Below, piece after piece: positions 1,826 to 6,405 of a DNA stretch of 64,000 bases. The position numbers were made by a program, and so were the translations under genes. The stretch lies in the NCBI RefSeq assembly GCF_001458255.1, contig NZ_CYSB01000025.1:310001-374000 (forward strand), read 5' to 3'. Source of the stretch: Thalassovita autumnalis. Lineage in GTDB: Bacteria > Pseudomonadota > Alphaproteobacteria > Rhodobacterales > Rhodobacteraceae. Below the pieces are notes generated by a model that was not told where the DNA came from, made no database searches, and worked only from the letters and a program-made list of their open reading frames with translations. How positions within the stretch are numbered: position 1 is the stretch's first letter; each line of letters starts with the position of its first letter.

Positions 1826-1830
1826 TCTAT
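1826..1830. repeat. Left copy of 5-bp target duplication (TCTAT)
   Basis: TCTAT lies immediately outside the proposed left end of the insertion element; an identical TCTAT lies immediately outside the right end at 4213-4217. This is the expected footprint of transposition with a 5-bp staggered cut. Confidence 0.7.
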
Positions 1831-1881
1831 TGTAAATCCCATTCAGAAATGTCACTGGCTGCGCAAAGCAGAAACGTCACC
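1831..1881 (+). repeat. Left terminal repeat region of the insertion element
   Basis: It starts TGTA and contains two GTCAC motifs at 1851-1855 and 1876-1880, 25 bp apart. The first sits in ATTCAGAAATGTCACT and the second in CAAAGCAGAAACGTCACC. Both halves recur at the right end in inverted orientation but swapped order, suggesting tandem transposase-binding sites. Confidence 0.65.
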
Positions 1882-1988
1882 ACAGGGAGGGACAGGAGCA
1901 AGGCTTTGCAGCCCGCAGACCCCAAATATCGGAGGGCTGAAAAGCCTTGCGGATTGCGGGTCTGTGGTGTCGAGGATAGCGTGGCGAC

Positions 1989-2714
1989 ATGCTTCCGACG
2001 CTCAAACTTCACTCAGATGCTGATGTCCTGAAACACTCTTCGCTGGTTCGTGGGATGACGCTTGCGTTGCGTTATGCCAACGAAACCGGCGGGATCGGGC
2101 TGACGCAATCAGGCTCCTTCAACCGCAAGTTTGTGCATTGGGCGGCGGAACACTTTGAATGGCCAGATTACACCGCCACCGAGTTATTCGAAATGAACAA
2201 GGTGCTGGATGAATACAAAATGCCACCTTTGTTCCCGGTGCATGGGTTGCTGCGTCATCTGAAGCTTCTTCGTCGTTACAAGGGCAAGCTGGTTGCGACT
2301 AAGAAAGGACGGGAGATGGCGGAAGCATCTGACGTCTTTTTTGATCTGACCGCTCCGGTTTATCTTTATCGTTTCATCCATGATGAACGGATCGAAGCCC
2401 GGGGTGGCCCCTTGGGCAACTGGGACATCTTTCTGAACGTGATCAACGTCGAGGCGCGGGCAGGGTGTACCTTAGCACATCTTCTCAAAACGCTTTACGG
2501 GTGGGAAGAAAAGGACCGCTACGATCCAGAGCACAGCGACATGCGGTTTGCGCTGAAATTCTGCGTCTTGCAGCCACTGTGTTGGCTCGGCCTGCTTTGG
2601 GAAGATCGGGAGGGGCTGAGGATTTGGGACGACGGCACATTTTACAAGACGCCACTCTGGCACGCAGCCCTTAAACTCGAAACCGATGGTCAGGCCGCTT
2701 TACGCCTTGTCTGA
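1989..2714 (+). CDS. Passenger protein of the insertion element, function unknown
   Basis: 241 residues, no signal peptide or membrane segment visible. The N-terminal half has the pattern GGIGLTQSGSFNRKFVHWA, then a conserved-looking FPVHGLLRHLKLLRRYKGKL and VATKKGREMA. This reads like one or two winged-helix-type units, a pattern I associate with C-terminal parts of some pRiA4b ORF-3-like hypothetical proteins; that resemblance is recollection, not proof. The gene begins about 160 bp inside the left end and stops 69 bp from the transposase stop, so it belongs to the element. No clear ribosome site precedes the ATG at 1989, and the next in-frame ATG is at 2055. DNA-binding accessory or antitoxin-like roles are possible. 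Confidence 0.7.
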   Translation: MLPTLKLHSDADVLKHSSLVRGMTLALRYANETGGIGLTQSGSFNRKFVHWAAEHFEWPDYTATELFEMNKVLDEYKMPPLFPVHGLLRHLKLLRRYKGKLVATKKGREMAEASDVFFDLTAPVYLYRFIHDERIEARGGPLGNWDIFLNVINVEARAGCTLAHLLKTLYGWEEKDRYDPEHSDMRFALKFCVLQPLCWLGLLWEDREGLRIWDDGTFYKTPLWHAALKLETDGQAALRLV

Positions 2715-2783
2715 TGCCACAGCTGCCGCATCCTGCTCGGCGTGTTTGAGCTCGTAATAGGCGTCCATGTCAGCAGTCTTGAG

Positions 2784-4130
2784 TTATTCTGCCGCGCGCG
2801 CAATCTTCTTCTTGGCCCGCGATCCTGGCGGTCTGCCTGGCCGACGCCCGTTCGGCTTGTAGCCCATCTTCTCTGAGTTTGTCCGCACCTTCGGCTTAGG
2901 CGGTGCGGCGTCCTGCATCTCTTTGACATAGGCCAGAACCGCACCGAGCCGCTTGTTCTCGGTGATGGCTGCATGGGTGACGCGCTGGTCCATATCAAAG
3001 ATCCTGTAGGGCAGGGCTTGGCCTTTCCAGCGTACCTCGAACCGCCCATCCACAAAGACATAGGTGTCCACATATTTGCCGACCAGAGCGCGTGACAGCT
3101 CGTTCTCTTCGAGCATGATCCGCTTGCGGTCATAGGAAAACGTGAGCTGCTTGCCGACATAGCGGTTCTCACGCCAGCACAACACTTCCGCCAGCCGATC
3201 CGGCTCCACATTCAACGCCCGGTGCAGGTTGTCCGGTTTGGCCGGGGCCTTGGCAAATTTGGCGTTAAAGCGGCTCTTAAAGCCTTCAAGAAAAGCGTTT
3301 CCGGCTTTCATGTCCGAAACGCCTGCCAGCCTCAGTTCTTTGACAAGCCGGTCCTGAAGCGTGCGGTTGGCCCGTTCTACGCGACCTTTGGCCTGAGAGC
3401 TGTTGGCGCACAGGATCTCGATGTTCAGCTCATTCAACGCACGCCCGAACTGGGTCATGCCTGCACCATTCCTGGCGTCTTCTTTGGCAACTCGGAATAC
3501 CGAATGCTTGTCGCTGTAAAAGGCCACTGGGCGGCCATGCTGAACCAAATAACTGTCCAACGCCTCGAAATAGCTGAACGTGCTCTCGGACTTCACAAAC
3601 CGCAGCTCCATCAAGGTGCTGGTGGCATCATCGATGAAAACGAGCAGGGTGCAGGGATCACCCCGATCCTCAAACCAACGGTGATCGGAACCATCAATCT
3701 GGATCAGCTCACCATAGCATTCGCGCCGTAAGCGAGGTTGATGGAAGGTCCGGCGCTGTTTCCGCGAGAGCCAGATGCCGTCTTCGATCATCCATTTGCG
3801 CACGGTCTCGCGAGACACTGTGAACCCGTGATGCTCAGCCAGCTTCTCAGCTGCCAGTGTTGGGCCGAAATCCGGGTAATTCTCTTTGATCAGGCTCAGA
3901 GCATAATCGCGCTTTGCATGATGGATACGATTGTTTGGAGGTTTGCCGCGCGCCTTATGCCGGATCGCTGAGGCGCCATCCTGCCGGTATCGCTTGAGAA
4001 GCCGGAACACTTGCCGCCTTGTCAGATCCAACATGTTCGCCGCATTAGCGACCGTCAGCCGACCATCACCAACCTGCGCCAAAACCTCAACGCGGTTCAA
4101 ATCGCGCTCGCTCATCATCACCCATCCCAT
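2784..4130 (-). CDS. ISNCY/IS1202-type DDE transposase
   Basis: 448 residues. An N-terminal HTH (NAANMLDLTRRQVFRLLKRYR) is followed by an HTH_29/rve-type core. The motifs QIDGSDHRWFEDRG, FIDDATS, FYSDKHSVFRV and AKGRVERANRTLQDRLVKELR match the DDE domain of ISNCY transposases and supply the expected D, D and E. The C-terminus is basic (GRRPGRPPGSRAKKK). Start at 4130 has AGGA upstream; an internal ATG at 4115 giving MSERDLN is an equally plausible start. The frame stays open for 27 more codons beyond the TAA at 2784, down to 2700, so the stop may be a recent nonsense change. Otherwise the gene looks intact. Confidence 0.9.
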   Translation of the reverse strand: MGWVMMSERDLNRVEVLAQVGDGRLTVANAANMLDLTRRQVFRLLKRYRQDGASAIRHKARGKPPNNRIHHAKRDYALSLIKENYPDFGPTLAAEKLAEHHGFTVSRETVRKWMIEDGIWLSRKQRRTFHQPRLRRECYGELIQIDGSDHRWFEDRGDPCTLLVFIDDATSTLMELRFVKSESTFSYFEALDSYLVQHGRPVAFYSDKHSVFRVAKEDARNGAGMTQFGRALNELNIEILCANSSQAKGRVERANRTLQDRLVKELRLAGVSDMKAGNAFLEGFKSRFNAKFAKAPAKPDNLHRALNVEPDRLAEVLCWRENRYVGKQLTFSYDRKRIMLEENELSRALVGKYVDTYVFVDGRFEVRWKGQALPYRIFDMDQRVTHAAITENKRLGAVLAYVKEMQDAAPPKPKVRTNSEKMGYKPNGRRPGRPPGSRAKKKIARAAE

Positions 4131-4162
4131 GTCCGCTCGTCCTCGCTACCGTATGCGAGGAG

Positions 4163-4212
4163 AGTGACACTTCTGAATTGCTCAGGGGTGACATTATCGC
4201 TTTGCGGCTACA
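4163..4212 (-). repeat. Right terminal repeat region of the insertion element
   Basis: Read inward on the minus strand it begins TGTAGCC and has GTCAC motifs 20 and about 44 bases from the tip (plus-strand GTGAC at 4188-4192 and 4164-4168). The outer unit reads GCAAAGCGATAATGTCACC and the inner AATTCAGAAGTGTCACT, matching the two left-end units. Confidence 0.65.
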
Positions 4213-4217
4213 TCTAT
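4213..4217. repeat. Right copy of 5-bp target duplication (TCTAT)
   Basis: Identical to 1826-1830 and directly outside the right end. It also forms the exact 5-bp spacer between the element and the dif-like site that follows. Confidence 0.7.
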
Positions 4218-4245
4218 AAATCGTATAATTAGTATTATGGTAAAT
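4218..4245 (+). other. dif-like XerC/XerD recombination site
   Basis: The 28-bp site has three parts. The left arm AAATCGTATAA (4218-4228) fits the variable XerC half (CGNATAA core). The spacer is the 6 bases TTAGTA. The right arm TTATGGTAAAT (4235-4245) differs at one base from the consensus XerD half TTATGTTAAAT. Arm lengths of 11, 6 and 11 are those of bacterial dif. Surrounding genes are chromosomal, so this may be the chromosomal dif where dimers are resolved; the unusual spacer also allows a pdif-type site. An insertion element lies 5 bp from the XerC arm. Confidence 0.68.
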
Positions 4246-4461: not shown

Positions 4462-5217
4462 ATGAGGAATAGCAAATATCTGCAAGCGCTCACCAATACG
4501 CAAAGTATTGAGGAGCTCTGGGATATGCACACGCGCAAAATGGCCTCCTACGGGTTTGACCGTCTGCTCTATGGTTTCACGCGTTACCGCACCTCCACCT
4601 CGCTTGGGGATCCCGATGATTTCATCGTGCTGACCAACCACGATCCGGCCTACACAGATGTCTTCATGGGCAAAGGCCTGTATTTCCATGGCCCTATGGT
4701 CAAATGGGTGCTGGAAAACGAAGGCGCCGCCAGCTGGAGCATCCTGGGCGAAATGCTGGATCAAGGTGCGCTGAGCGAGAGTGAGAAGCGCGTGCTGGAG
4801 TTTAACCGTAAAATGCAGGTGACCGCCGGTTATTCGATCAGTTTTAAATCAATTTCCCCGCGGGCCAAAGGGGCAATTGCGCTGACTGCGCAGGCCGATA
4901 TCCCGCAGGAAGAGATTGATAAGGTCTGGGCCGAACATGGCGACGAAATTCTGGTGATGAACAATGTATGTCACCTGAAAATCATGACCCTGCCCTATGC
5001 AACGCCGAACCAGACCTTGACCAAGCGGCAGCGTGAAGCGCTGGAATGGGTTGGCGACGGCAAGACAACACAGGACATTGCGCTGCTGATGGGGCTCACG
5101 CCTGCCACGGTTGAAAAACACCTGCGCCTGGCCCGCGACAACCTGAATGTTGAGACCACCGCACAGGCGGTTTTGAAGGCGGCACTGCAGAACCAAATGT
5201 TTGTTATCGAAGCCTAA
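4462..5217 (+). CDS. LuxR-family regulator with autoinducer-binding domain (LuxR solo)
   Basis: 251 residues: an N-terminal autoinducer-binding-like domain (about 10-165) and a C-terminal GerE HTH (LTKRQREALEWVGDGKTTQDIALLMG, TPATVEKHLRLARDNLNV). No luxI-type synthase is present in the window, so it is a solo as far as can be seen. In the ligand pocket the usual Asp-Pro pair is replaced by His-Gly-Pro (LYFHGPMVKW), so the ligand, if any, may differ from ordinary acyl-homoserine lactones. ATG 4462 is preferred over an in-frame GTG at 4393 because GAGGACGG precedes it. It lies next to the dif-like site. Which genes it controls is unknown. Confidence 0.85.
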   Translation: MRNSKYLQALTNTQSIEELWDMHTRKMASYGFDRLLYGFTRYRTSTSLGDPDDFIVLTNHDPAYTDVFMGKGLYFHGPMVKWVLENEGAASWSILGEMLDQGALSESEKRVLEFNRKMQVTAGYSISFKSISPRAKGAIALTAQADIPQEEIDKVWAEHGDEILVMNNVCHLKIMTLPYATPNQTLTKRQREALEWVGDGKTTQDIALLMGLTPATVEKHLRLARDNLNVETTAQAVLKAALQNQMFVIEA

Positions 5218-5616: not shown

Positions 5617-6405
5617 ATGACCACCCCGGCCAATTCGGTCCACCCTACCCTGCCAAATGCCTTTCCTGCTGAAGTATCAGACGCACTAAACTTCTACGTT
5701 TATCGCTTAATCGATCCCAGAAATGGCGAAACTTTTTATGTCGGAAAAGGGAAAGGCAATCGTGTATTCGCCCATGCCGCCGGCCTAAAAGAAACGCTCA
5801 ACACTGCCGAGGCGGAGGAGGATCGCCCGGTCCTCAATGATAAAATGACCAGGATCTATGACATTATGAAGTCAGGTCTTTCGGTACAACATGTGATCCA
5901 CCGTCACGGGCTGGACAACAAAACAGCCTACGAAGTTGAGGCCGCCCTTATTGAAGCCTATCCTGCGGTCACCAACATTGCTGGTGGGCATGGCTCTTTG
6001 GATCGGGGCGTTGCCCATAGTTCTGAGATCATTCGCCGTTACATGGCGGAAGAGGCGATTGTTGATGATCCGGCTGTGGAGATCATTGTACGGCACTCAT
6101 CTGGGAAGAATGAATTGTATGACGCTACGCGATTCAGCTGGCGCATCAGCCAGGTCCGGGCAAACAAAGCACGACTCGCTCTTGCGGTTGAGAACGGCCT
6201 GATTATTGGTGTCTTTGAAATTGACGAATGGCTGCCGGCGACGGCCAGAAATTTCCCTGGGTTGATAGACCCCGATACCGAAAGTGACCGCTTCGGCTTT
6301 GTTGGCCGTGAGGCGGCACAGCATCTGAAAGATAAATACCACATGAAGAAAGTTGCACCGCGGGCGCGGGGGGCCGCGAACCCGATCCGGTACCACAATA
6401 TCTAA
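5617..6405 (+). CDS. GIY-YIG domain protein (LEM-3-like)
   Basis: 262 residues. The N-terminal third carries a GIY-YIG nuclease-type fold: FYVYRLIDPRNGETFYVGKGKGNRVFAH supplies the two short motifs (here YVYR and YVGKGKGNR with the Arg) and EVEAALIEAYP the conserved Glu region. The rest is a region with no motif I recognise, ending in a basic tail. Proteins of this class are metal-dependent endonucleases or DNA-repair associated, but the bacterial LEM-3-like members are mostly uncharacterised, so substrate and role are not stated. A weak AAGAG-type ribosome site precedes the ATG. It converges on tsf, separated by a terminator. Confidence 0.75.
   Translation: MTTPANSVHPTLPNAFPAEVSDALNFYVYRLIDPRNGETFYVGKGKGNRVFAHAAGLKETLNTAEAEEDRPVLNDKMTRIYDIMKSGLSVQHVIHRHGLDNKTAYEVEAALIEAYPAVTNIAGGHGSLDRGVAHSSEIIRRYMAEEAIVDDPAVEIIVRHSSGKNELYDATRFSWRISQVRANKARLALAVENGLIIGVFEIDEWLPATARNFPGLIDPDTESDRFGFVGREAAQHLKDKYHMKKVAPRARGAANPIRYHNI

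Follow-up and report, generated by a model that had tools for sequence, protein, structure and literature searches.

The window, by which we mean the whole 64,000-nucleotide stretch of Thalassovita autumnalis DNA, contains a 2382-bp insertion sequence (IS) at 1831-4212 with TGT/ACA ends, a 5-bp copy of TCTAT on either flank and, directly after the right copy, the dif-like Xer site AAATCGTATAA-TTAGTA-TTATGGTAAAT at 4218-4245. Judged from the sequence-level pattern, namely a fixed side and orientation, a near-fixed distance, a whole dif, a position at the terminus and reuse in many replicons, this is very probably an Xer-site-hunting element of the IS1202 family (ISAjo2 group) that inserted beside the chromosomal dif of a Rhodobacterales bacterium. 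The features of the locus are given below; G002 denotes a relative whose genome of 4,606,831 bp is a single contig, and KOPS stands for FtsK-orienting polar sequences.

1826..1830, no strand: target-site duplication TCTAT, distal side (sequence; flank comparison with G002)
1831..4212, minus: IS1202-family (ISAjo2-group) transporter IS, 2382 bp, TGT...ACA ends (equal-length copies on four Leisingera caerulea plasmids)
1831..1880, plus: distal end, 25-bp terminal inverted repeat and subterminal copy (13/19)
1989..2714, plus: passenger gene, 241 aa (homologues in related elements and elsewhere)
2458..2465, plus: KOPS-like GGGCAGGG in the passenger gene, toward dif (motif scan)
2784..4130, minus: transposase, 448 aa (NCBIfam NF033594, ISNCY, E 7.5e-152; D146, D207, E252, Q at +7)
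3009..3016, plus: KOPS-like GGGCAGGG in the transposase gene, toward dif (motif scan)
4164..4212, minus: dif-side end, 25-bp terminal inverted repeat and subterminal copy (ends 15/25 identical; subterminal copy 12/19)
4213..4217, no strand: target-site duplication TCTAT, dif side, adjoining the XerC arm (sequence; flank comparison with G002)
4218..4245, plus: site read as the chromosomal dif, XerC arm 4218-4228, spacer 4229-4234, XerD arm 4235-4245 (sequence, KOPS switch, skew, empty orthologous site in G002)
4462..5217, plus: LuxR-type regulator gene outside the element, which marks the dif locus in relatives (Pfam; synteny)

The original prediction placed the right end of the element at 4212, followed by TCTAT and then the XerC arm, exactly as the sequence reads. 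It also described an 11-6-11 layout with an XerD arm near TTATGTTAAAT, which is confirmed with one XerD-arm mismatch. The interval that it reported, 4213-4245, is right as to site and spacing but includes the 5-bp duplication, the dif itself being 4218-4245. A first reading of the element is corrected in that the passenger gene is its second gene. The transposase gene lies on the minus strand with its 5' end facing the 28-mer, and its product is encoded once in the window's genome (protein search, 48 contigs).

Family assignment

The NF033594 match, the TGT/ACA ends, the 5-bp duplication and a DDE transposase with Q at +7 place the element among the transporter-type ISs of the IS1202 family, in the ISAjo2 group. 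According to PMC10132070, elements of the family have a DDE transposase of 394-507 aa with Q seven residues after E, TGT/ACA outer ends, imperfect inverted repeats of 22-29 bp, an inner repeat copied near each end, and target duplications of 3-5 bp; those of the ISAjo2 group have a constant orientation, with dif beside the transposase 5' end and its XerC arm 5 bp away. The window element agrees with the ISAjo2 group in transposase, ends, subterminal repeats, duplication and insertion orientation. The residues D146, D207, E252 and Q259 (E +7) were assigned via the motif and by analogy with PMC10132070. The identity of 15/25 between the ends is at the low end of the published range and equals that of ISRel10 (15/25), and the subterminal copies are 5-6 bp internal to the terminal repeats (next best match 8/19), compared with 7-10 bp in the Acinetobacter elements (PMC10132070). 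A TnsB-like fold is a further feature of the family; the fold model of the window's transposase is of low confidence (mean predicted local distance difference test, pLDDT, 57.7); for this model Foldseek gave IstA and TnsB as nearest at E 4e-5 with TM-scores of only about 0.2, and a PDB sequence search with the transposase gave no match at E 0.01. The predicted occurrence of an ISAba32/ISAjo2-type element 5 bp off an XerC arm on an alphaproteobacterial chromosome is borne out by the sequence.

The 28-mer as chromosomal dif

The sequence evidence identifies the 28-mer as the chromosomal dif. The original prediction had raised this as a possibility and named GC skew, FtsK-orienting motifs and related genomes as the places to look; the results from all three uphold it. 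On the 427,244-bp contig that holds the window (C25, with the site at 314,218), the KOPS-like motif GGGNAGGG occurs 80 times on the plus and 3 times on the minus strand left of the site, and once on the plus and 31 times on the minus strand right of it. With the best single switch, which falls between 313,009 and 314,988 and brackets dif, 111 of the 115 motifs are oriented as expected. The motifs at 313,009 and 312,458 are internal to the element; when both are left out, dif remains inside the switch interval (309,779 to 314,988). Cumulative GC skew on the same contig climbs to a maximum at 287,782 and declines after it, and the distance of 26 kb between this maximum and the site is a point against the assignment.

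In G002 the orthologous site is empty and lies near 2.2915 Mb, that is, at mid-chromosome, and 20 skew samples from that genome place the sign change at 2.20-2.32 Mb. The flanks of the window element, joined with a single TCTAT, align across this uninterrupted locus and its intact dif with a few small differences. Of the 27 loci read, 16, the window's own among them, have a TAA-N6-TTATG site upstream of the LuxR-type gene that marks the locus; in two of the 11 misses (G035 and G015) an element lies between gene and site, the latter being about 3 kb upstream and beyond the stretch read. Within the window the 28-mer is unique at up to 3 mismatches, with 0 expected (100 shuffles). A chance origin of the 28-mer was considered and is ruled out, as no shuffle gave a match and the evidence from the terminus is independent.

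As for the recombinases, the best match to the XerD model (C25:210338, 317.9 bits) is below the cut-off of 329.6 and the best match to the XerC model (C30:64975, 311.9 bits) is below that of 335.15; each ranks second for the other's model. Just past the LuxR-type gene near dif, a LEM-3-like GIY-YIG domain protein is encoded at 5617-6405.

Insertion beside Xer sites in related genomes

Many related elements in Rhodobacterales and some in Rhizobiales likewise lie near the XerC arm, an addition to the Acinetobacter record. From a named-genome scan that gave 270 relatives, the best 80 were kept as loci. Spacing was read in 53 elements: the window's and those of 52 loci that have a strict end and sufficient flanking sequence (of the other 28 loci, 27 have no strict end and one has a short flank). 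A dif-like core is found on the XerC side in 47 of the 53: at 5 bp in 24, at 6 bp in 13, at 7 bp in 9 and at 8 bp in one. The 5-bp spacing, for which the original prediction had proposed a survey, thus recurs in relatives, with some copies at 6-7 bp. A strict test for 5 bp only gave 21/50 and understated the targeting, because other copies use 6-7 bp. In a looser scan the core is also present in six loci that have no strict end and are not counted (L005, L050, L055, L059, L061, L081); L023, scored as a miss in the spacing count owing to a tandemly repeated end, was assigned manually to the 7-bp class in the tree analysis. Elements 6 or 7 bp off the XerC arm include L017, L024, L025, L031 and others as well as G373:C67 (L224, L225); they have 5- or 6-bp duplications where these were found, and the spacer GGTTTA is common to several.

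A pattern of C-side end plus site, with 1-9 bp left open between them, gave 52 matches in 34 of 394 family genomes, 39 of them at 5 bp, compared with one match for the reversed control pattern; the single 8-bp match (G167) looks like chance. A stricter pattern for D-side insertion, in which the XerD arm had to be canonical (AACATAA), matched in 0 of the 394 genomes, and degenerate cases could escape it. Several observations weigh against general targeting: 6 of the 53 elements have no dif-like core, and one of these, L036, has a 6-bp duplication and is therefore probably a true insertion elsewhere; in a simple search a duplication of at least 5 bp is present in only 24 of the 53, whereas 9 have 4 bp only and 20 have none.

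The transposase would locate its target by reading either dif DNA or dif-bound XerC. That it reads bare dif-like DNA (TAA-N6-TTATG), the Xer proteins having no part, comes close to an even possibility. The targets are degenerate and have mainly the inner arms in common, and the spacing follows the transposase tree in part, its 5-, 6- and 7-bp classes clustering with 9 changes compared with 17.0 in shuffles (40 rows); a transposase that itself measures the distance would be expected to give such a pattern. Xer sites, however, have their conserved core in these same inner arms, so that the data fit both readings, and contact with bound XerC is proposed in PMC10132070.

Several hosts connect the elements to established sites and to more than one replicon. 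Genome G083, whose two large contigs (3,188,524 and 943,018 bp) are consistent with Rhodobacter sphaeroides 2.4.1, carries, next to GAGTCGGATAATCTGTATTATGTATTCT and TTATCTGATAAGCAAGATTATGTAATCA, elements of roughly 1.6 kb that have 5-bp duplications; these two sites are letter-identical to the dif sites of R. sphaeroides chromosomes 1 and 2 given in PMC2731167; element ends are also found at Xer-like sites of three plasmid-sized contigs (100-114 kb). In Agrobacterium salinitolerans, an element lies beside a site one base off the A. tumefaciens dif published in the same source. Leisingera caerulea S216 has the window's element on four plasmids, with the same length and a 100% identical transposase, each copy at a different Xer-like site and with its own 5-bp duplication. 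The copy in Pseudooceanicola batsensis (L003), another sampled genus, has a transposase 99% and a passenger 98% identical and lies at a different dif-like site, which suggests recent horizontal spread. Xer sites of large replicons may offer a near-neutral landing place, through which the element could pass between plasmids and chromosomes.

To describe the surroundings, sequence was fetched around 21 of the 52 matches and the 17 with both flanks were counted, 1.5 kb being cut out for the element (a remnant of longer elements may persist). Four genomes were dropped: G281, G104 and G182, because their left-flank values are contig-end artefacts, and G254. Eight sites with a chromosomal-type spacer or a published dif have 86 flanking KOPS-like motifs toward the site and 2 away from it; the nine other sites have 52 toward and 20 away. 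At the four L. caerulea plasmid sites, with the element excluded, the counts are 49 and 11, the plasmid unnamed3 being weak. Among the nine other sites, those of G011 and G075 run against KOPS convergence and that of G397 is weak, which speaks against a general rule. The elements therefore often, though not always, mark the dimer-resolution sites of replicons. In the one-contig 3.56-Mb genome G011, the element (C1:2763659; L220, L221) stands at a dif-like site within one arm, off any KOPS switch; this is perhaps a secondary or imported Xer site.

Oriented KOPS-like motifs inside the elements

In the 1.5 kb around the transposase gene, the 80 loci contain 66 KOPS-like motifs directed toward dif and one directed away, and 55 of the 80 have at least one in this permissive direction. 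Within the transposase genes, 57 permissive motifs compare with 5.7 under synonymous shuffling (standard deviation 2.3, maximum 13 in 200 shuffles), whereas the single reversed motif compares with 3.4. A non-redundant set was formed from 81 sequences (window included), of which 66 have at least 400 aa and 58 remain under 90% identity; 38 of the 58 genes have permissive motifs, with 4.1 expected, and none has a reversed one. Among 12,315 words of identical shape scored against synonymous shuffles, the KOPS-like motif takes first place. The main site consists of the codons for A/S/T-L-P at residues 372-374, present in 32 of 57 non-redundant genes with 2.19 expected. Further permissive motifs occur at positions 89, 295, 348, 381, 425, 433 and 440, including elements in which the 372 site is missing, such as a Roseibium element with its motif at 348. 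In ISKpn21 the motif lies at 425.

A phylum- and class-wide sample gave 49 readable copies, from which the window and both readings of L025 (L025, L247) were removed. Among copies with a dif-like target 4 of 8 are permissive and none is reversed, compared with 2 permissive and 2 reversed among 38 copies in which no target was detected (Fisher p 0.0055, relatedness not corrected). Of 7 further plasmid copies, 5 are permissive in the transposase gene and none is reversed.

We regard these oriented motifs, read from sequence, as good though not final evidence of selection. Given that the orientation of the element to dif is invariant, selection could act on FtsK-orienting motifs in the permissive direction, and the statistical signal for this is strong; such motifs would keep FtsK from being misdirected in the dimer-resolution zone. 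We put at an even chance that dif-hunting IS1202-family ISs have in this way evolved to hold the FtsK-orienting motif of the host in the permissive direction only, and that they would flag the sites of dimer resolution on the replicons, including plasmids, into which they move.

The main and serious rival is shared ancestry: the motifs would be a by-product of descent and codon choice (A/S/T-L-P, C-rich codons) with no adaptation to FtsK, which we consider possible, if on the doubtful side. Much of the signal comes from one homologous codon triplet, the site of the 32 genes noted above, to which shared ancestry must contribute. The proline codon of that triplet is only fifth of 295 columns in synonymous conservation, not first; on the tree of 40 rows, just 7 changes account for presence and absence of the motif; the second-ranked word follows closely (13.5 versus 14.9); and the motif is absent from the transposase genes of the Acinetobacter and Vibrio elements fetched. 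All of these count against selection. Codon usage, however, predicts 2.19 and not 32 occurrences at 372-374, and the first rank among all words of its shape, the permissive motifs elsewhere in genes without the 372 site, and the absence of bias in members without a detected dif-like target are not what ancestry and codon choice lead one to expect.

Effect on dimer resolution and a second dif-like site

The original prediction held that the element might interfere with dimer resolution. This is possible, and the sequence evidence leans against harm: the interference reading is unsupported, since all 28 bp are whole and the KOPS-like motifs of the element point toward dif. An element only 5 bp off the XerC arm could crowd XerC, so that its presence would be a transient deleterious state. 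In line with this, of the 18 LuxR-gene loci that have a site, counting G015 and G035 along with the 16 among the 27 read, 15 lack an element end ahead of it. Such harm is nevertheless quite unlikely, considering that the KOPS direction is kept and that seven other genus codes also have elements at dif-type sites where KOPS converge (G083, on two chromosomes, G015, G035, G107, G165, G246 and G096).

A looser dif pattern with up to 3 mismatches finds one further place in the 4.36-Mb genome (48 contigs), at C47:90494-90521 (locus L002 of the window's genome, G000). This site, ATTTCGTGTAA-TATATA-TTATGATAAAT, has no element. Contig C47 has plasmid-type RepA and RepB partition genes at about 25-27 kb, and its KOPS-like motifs number 9 minus and 2 plus before 27 kb, and 18 plus and 4 minus from 27 kb to the site; the site is probably the plasmid's own Xer site. 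That the working dif lies there or elsewhere, the 28-mer being merely a dif-like relic, is hardly credible: a second site does exist and a third could fall in a gap between the 48 contigs, but the motifs of C47 change direction where RepA and RepB lie, and the KOPS switch of C25 falls at the 28-mer.

The passenger gene

The 241-aa passenger has no match in Pfam and NCBIfam (E 0.001) or in PADLOC and PHROGs (E 0.1). Its structure model is good (pLDDT 83), with only weak, winged-helix-like structure matches, none of them at E 0.001. An alignment of 12 family members has 33 invariant columns. The family is also found outside these elements, with matches in 17 of 198 family genomes, and a second copy lies in the window's own genome (C18:17486). 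Genes beside the non-element homologues resemble, by eye, serine-recombinase, DUF2924 or Fic genes. In L004, L007 and L015, and in L025 and L040, two other recurring reading frames of about 90-120 aa replace the 241-aa gene (by eye).

Comparison with known systems

Targeting of the position 5 bp from the XerC arm of a chromosomal dif has been in print for Acinetobacter since 2023, where ISAjo2, ISAba71, ISAba32 and their kin are described at plasmid pdif sites as well as at chromosomal dif (Harmer, Pong and Hall 2023, PMC10132070). Compared with these ISAjo2-type elements, the window element resides in an alphaproteobacterial host, is 2382 bp long and has a passenger gene. Its transposase is 46% identical to that of a 1482-bp A. 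johnsonii element, its relatives also use spacings of 6 and 7 bp, and it contains oriented KOPS, which are missing in that A. johnsonii copy. At title and abstract level, with subscription literature mostly outside the search, we found no report of KOPS in mobile elements or of dif-targeting elements in Rhodobacterales. Given the spread of these elements in Rhodobacterales and other Alphaproteobacteria, dimer-resolution sites of plasmids and chromids become searchable beside them.

Another transporter IS of the IS1202 family is ISKpn21: it has 2278 bp, a transposase 50% identical to the window's, a passenger gene in the same place, a position 5 bp from a dif-like site and one permissive KOPS. 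It differs in belonging to Gammaproteobacteria and in a passenger protein without BLAST match to that of the window. ISRel10, ISRel26 and ISMex6 belong to the same family, occur in Alphaproteobacteria and have 5-bp duplications, and ISRel10 has an extra gene too (PMC10132070). Their targets are described there as only loosely pdif-like. The TTATGGAAC-type arms of these targets resemble rhizobial dif (PMC2731167) and hence the targets may be ordinary alphaproteobacterial Xer sites, an option raised already in PMC10132070. In the present data, several alphaproteobacterial targets coincide with published chromosomal dif sites and with points of KOPS convergence.

With respect to polarity, the nearest precedent is the observation that prophages and transferred segments near the terminus keep KOPS and architecture-imparting sequences (AIMS) in the permissive direction of the host (PMC5993296). 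That work covers prophages and transferred DNA, and the terms "insertion sequence" and "transpos" are absent from its main text; the present case concerns an element of 1.5-3 kb whose orientation to dif does not change. Should the oriented KOPS be under selection, an element of this size provides a clean test of the strength of the FtsK-polarity constraint on incoming DNA next to dif, and of the possibility that Xer proteins guide a transposase; very small mobile elements would then be shaped by the polarity of chromosome segregation, as is described for prophages and transferred segments.
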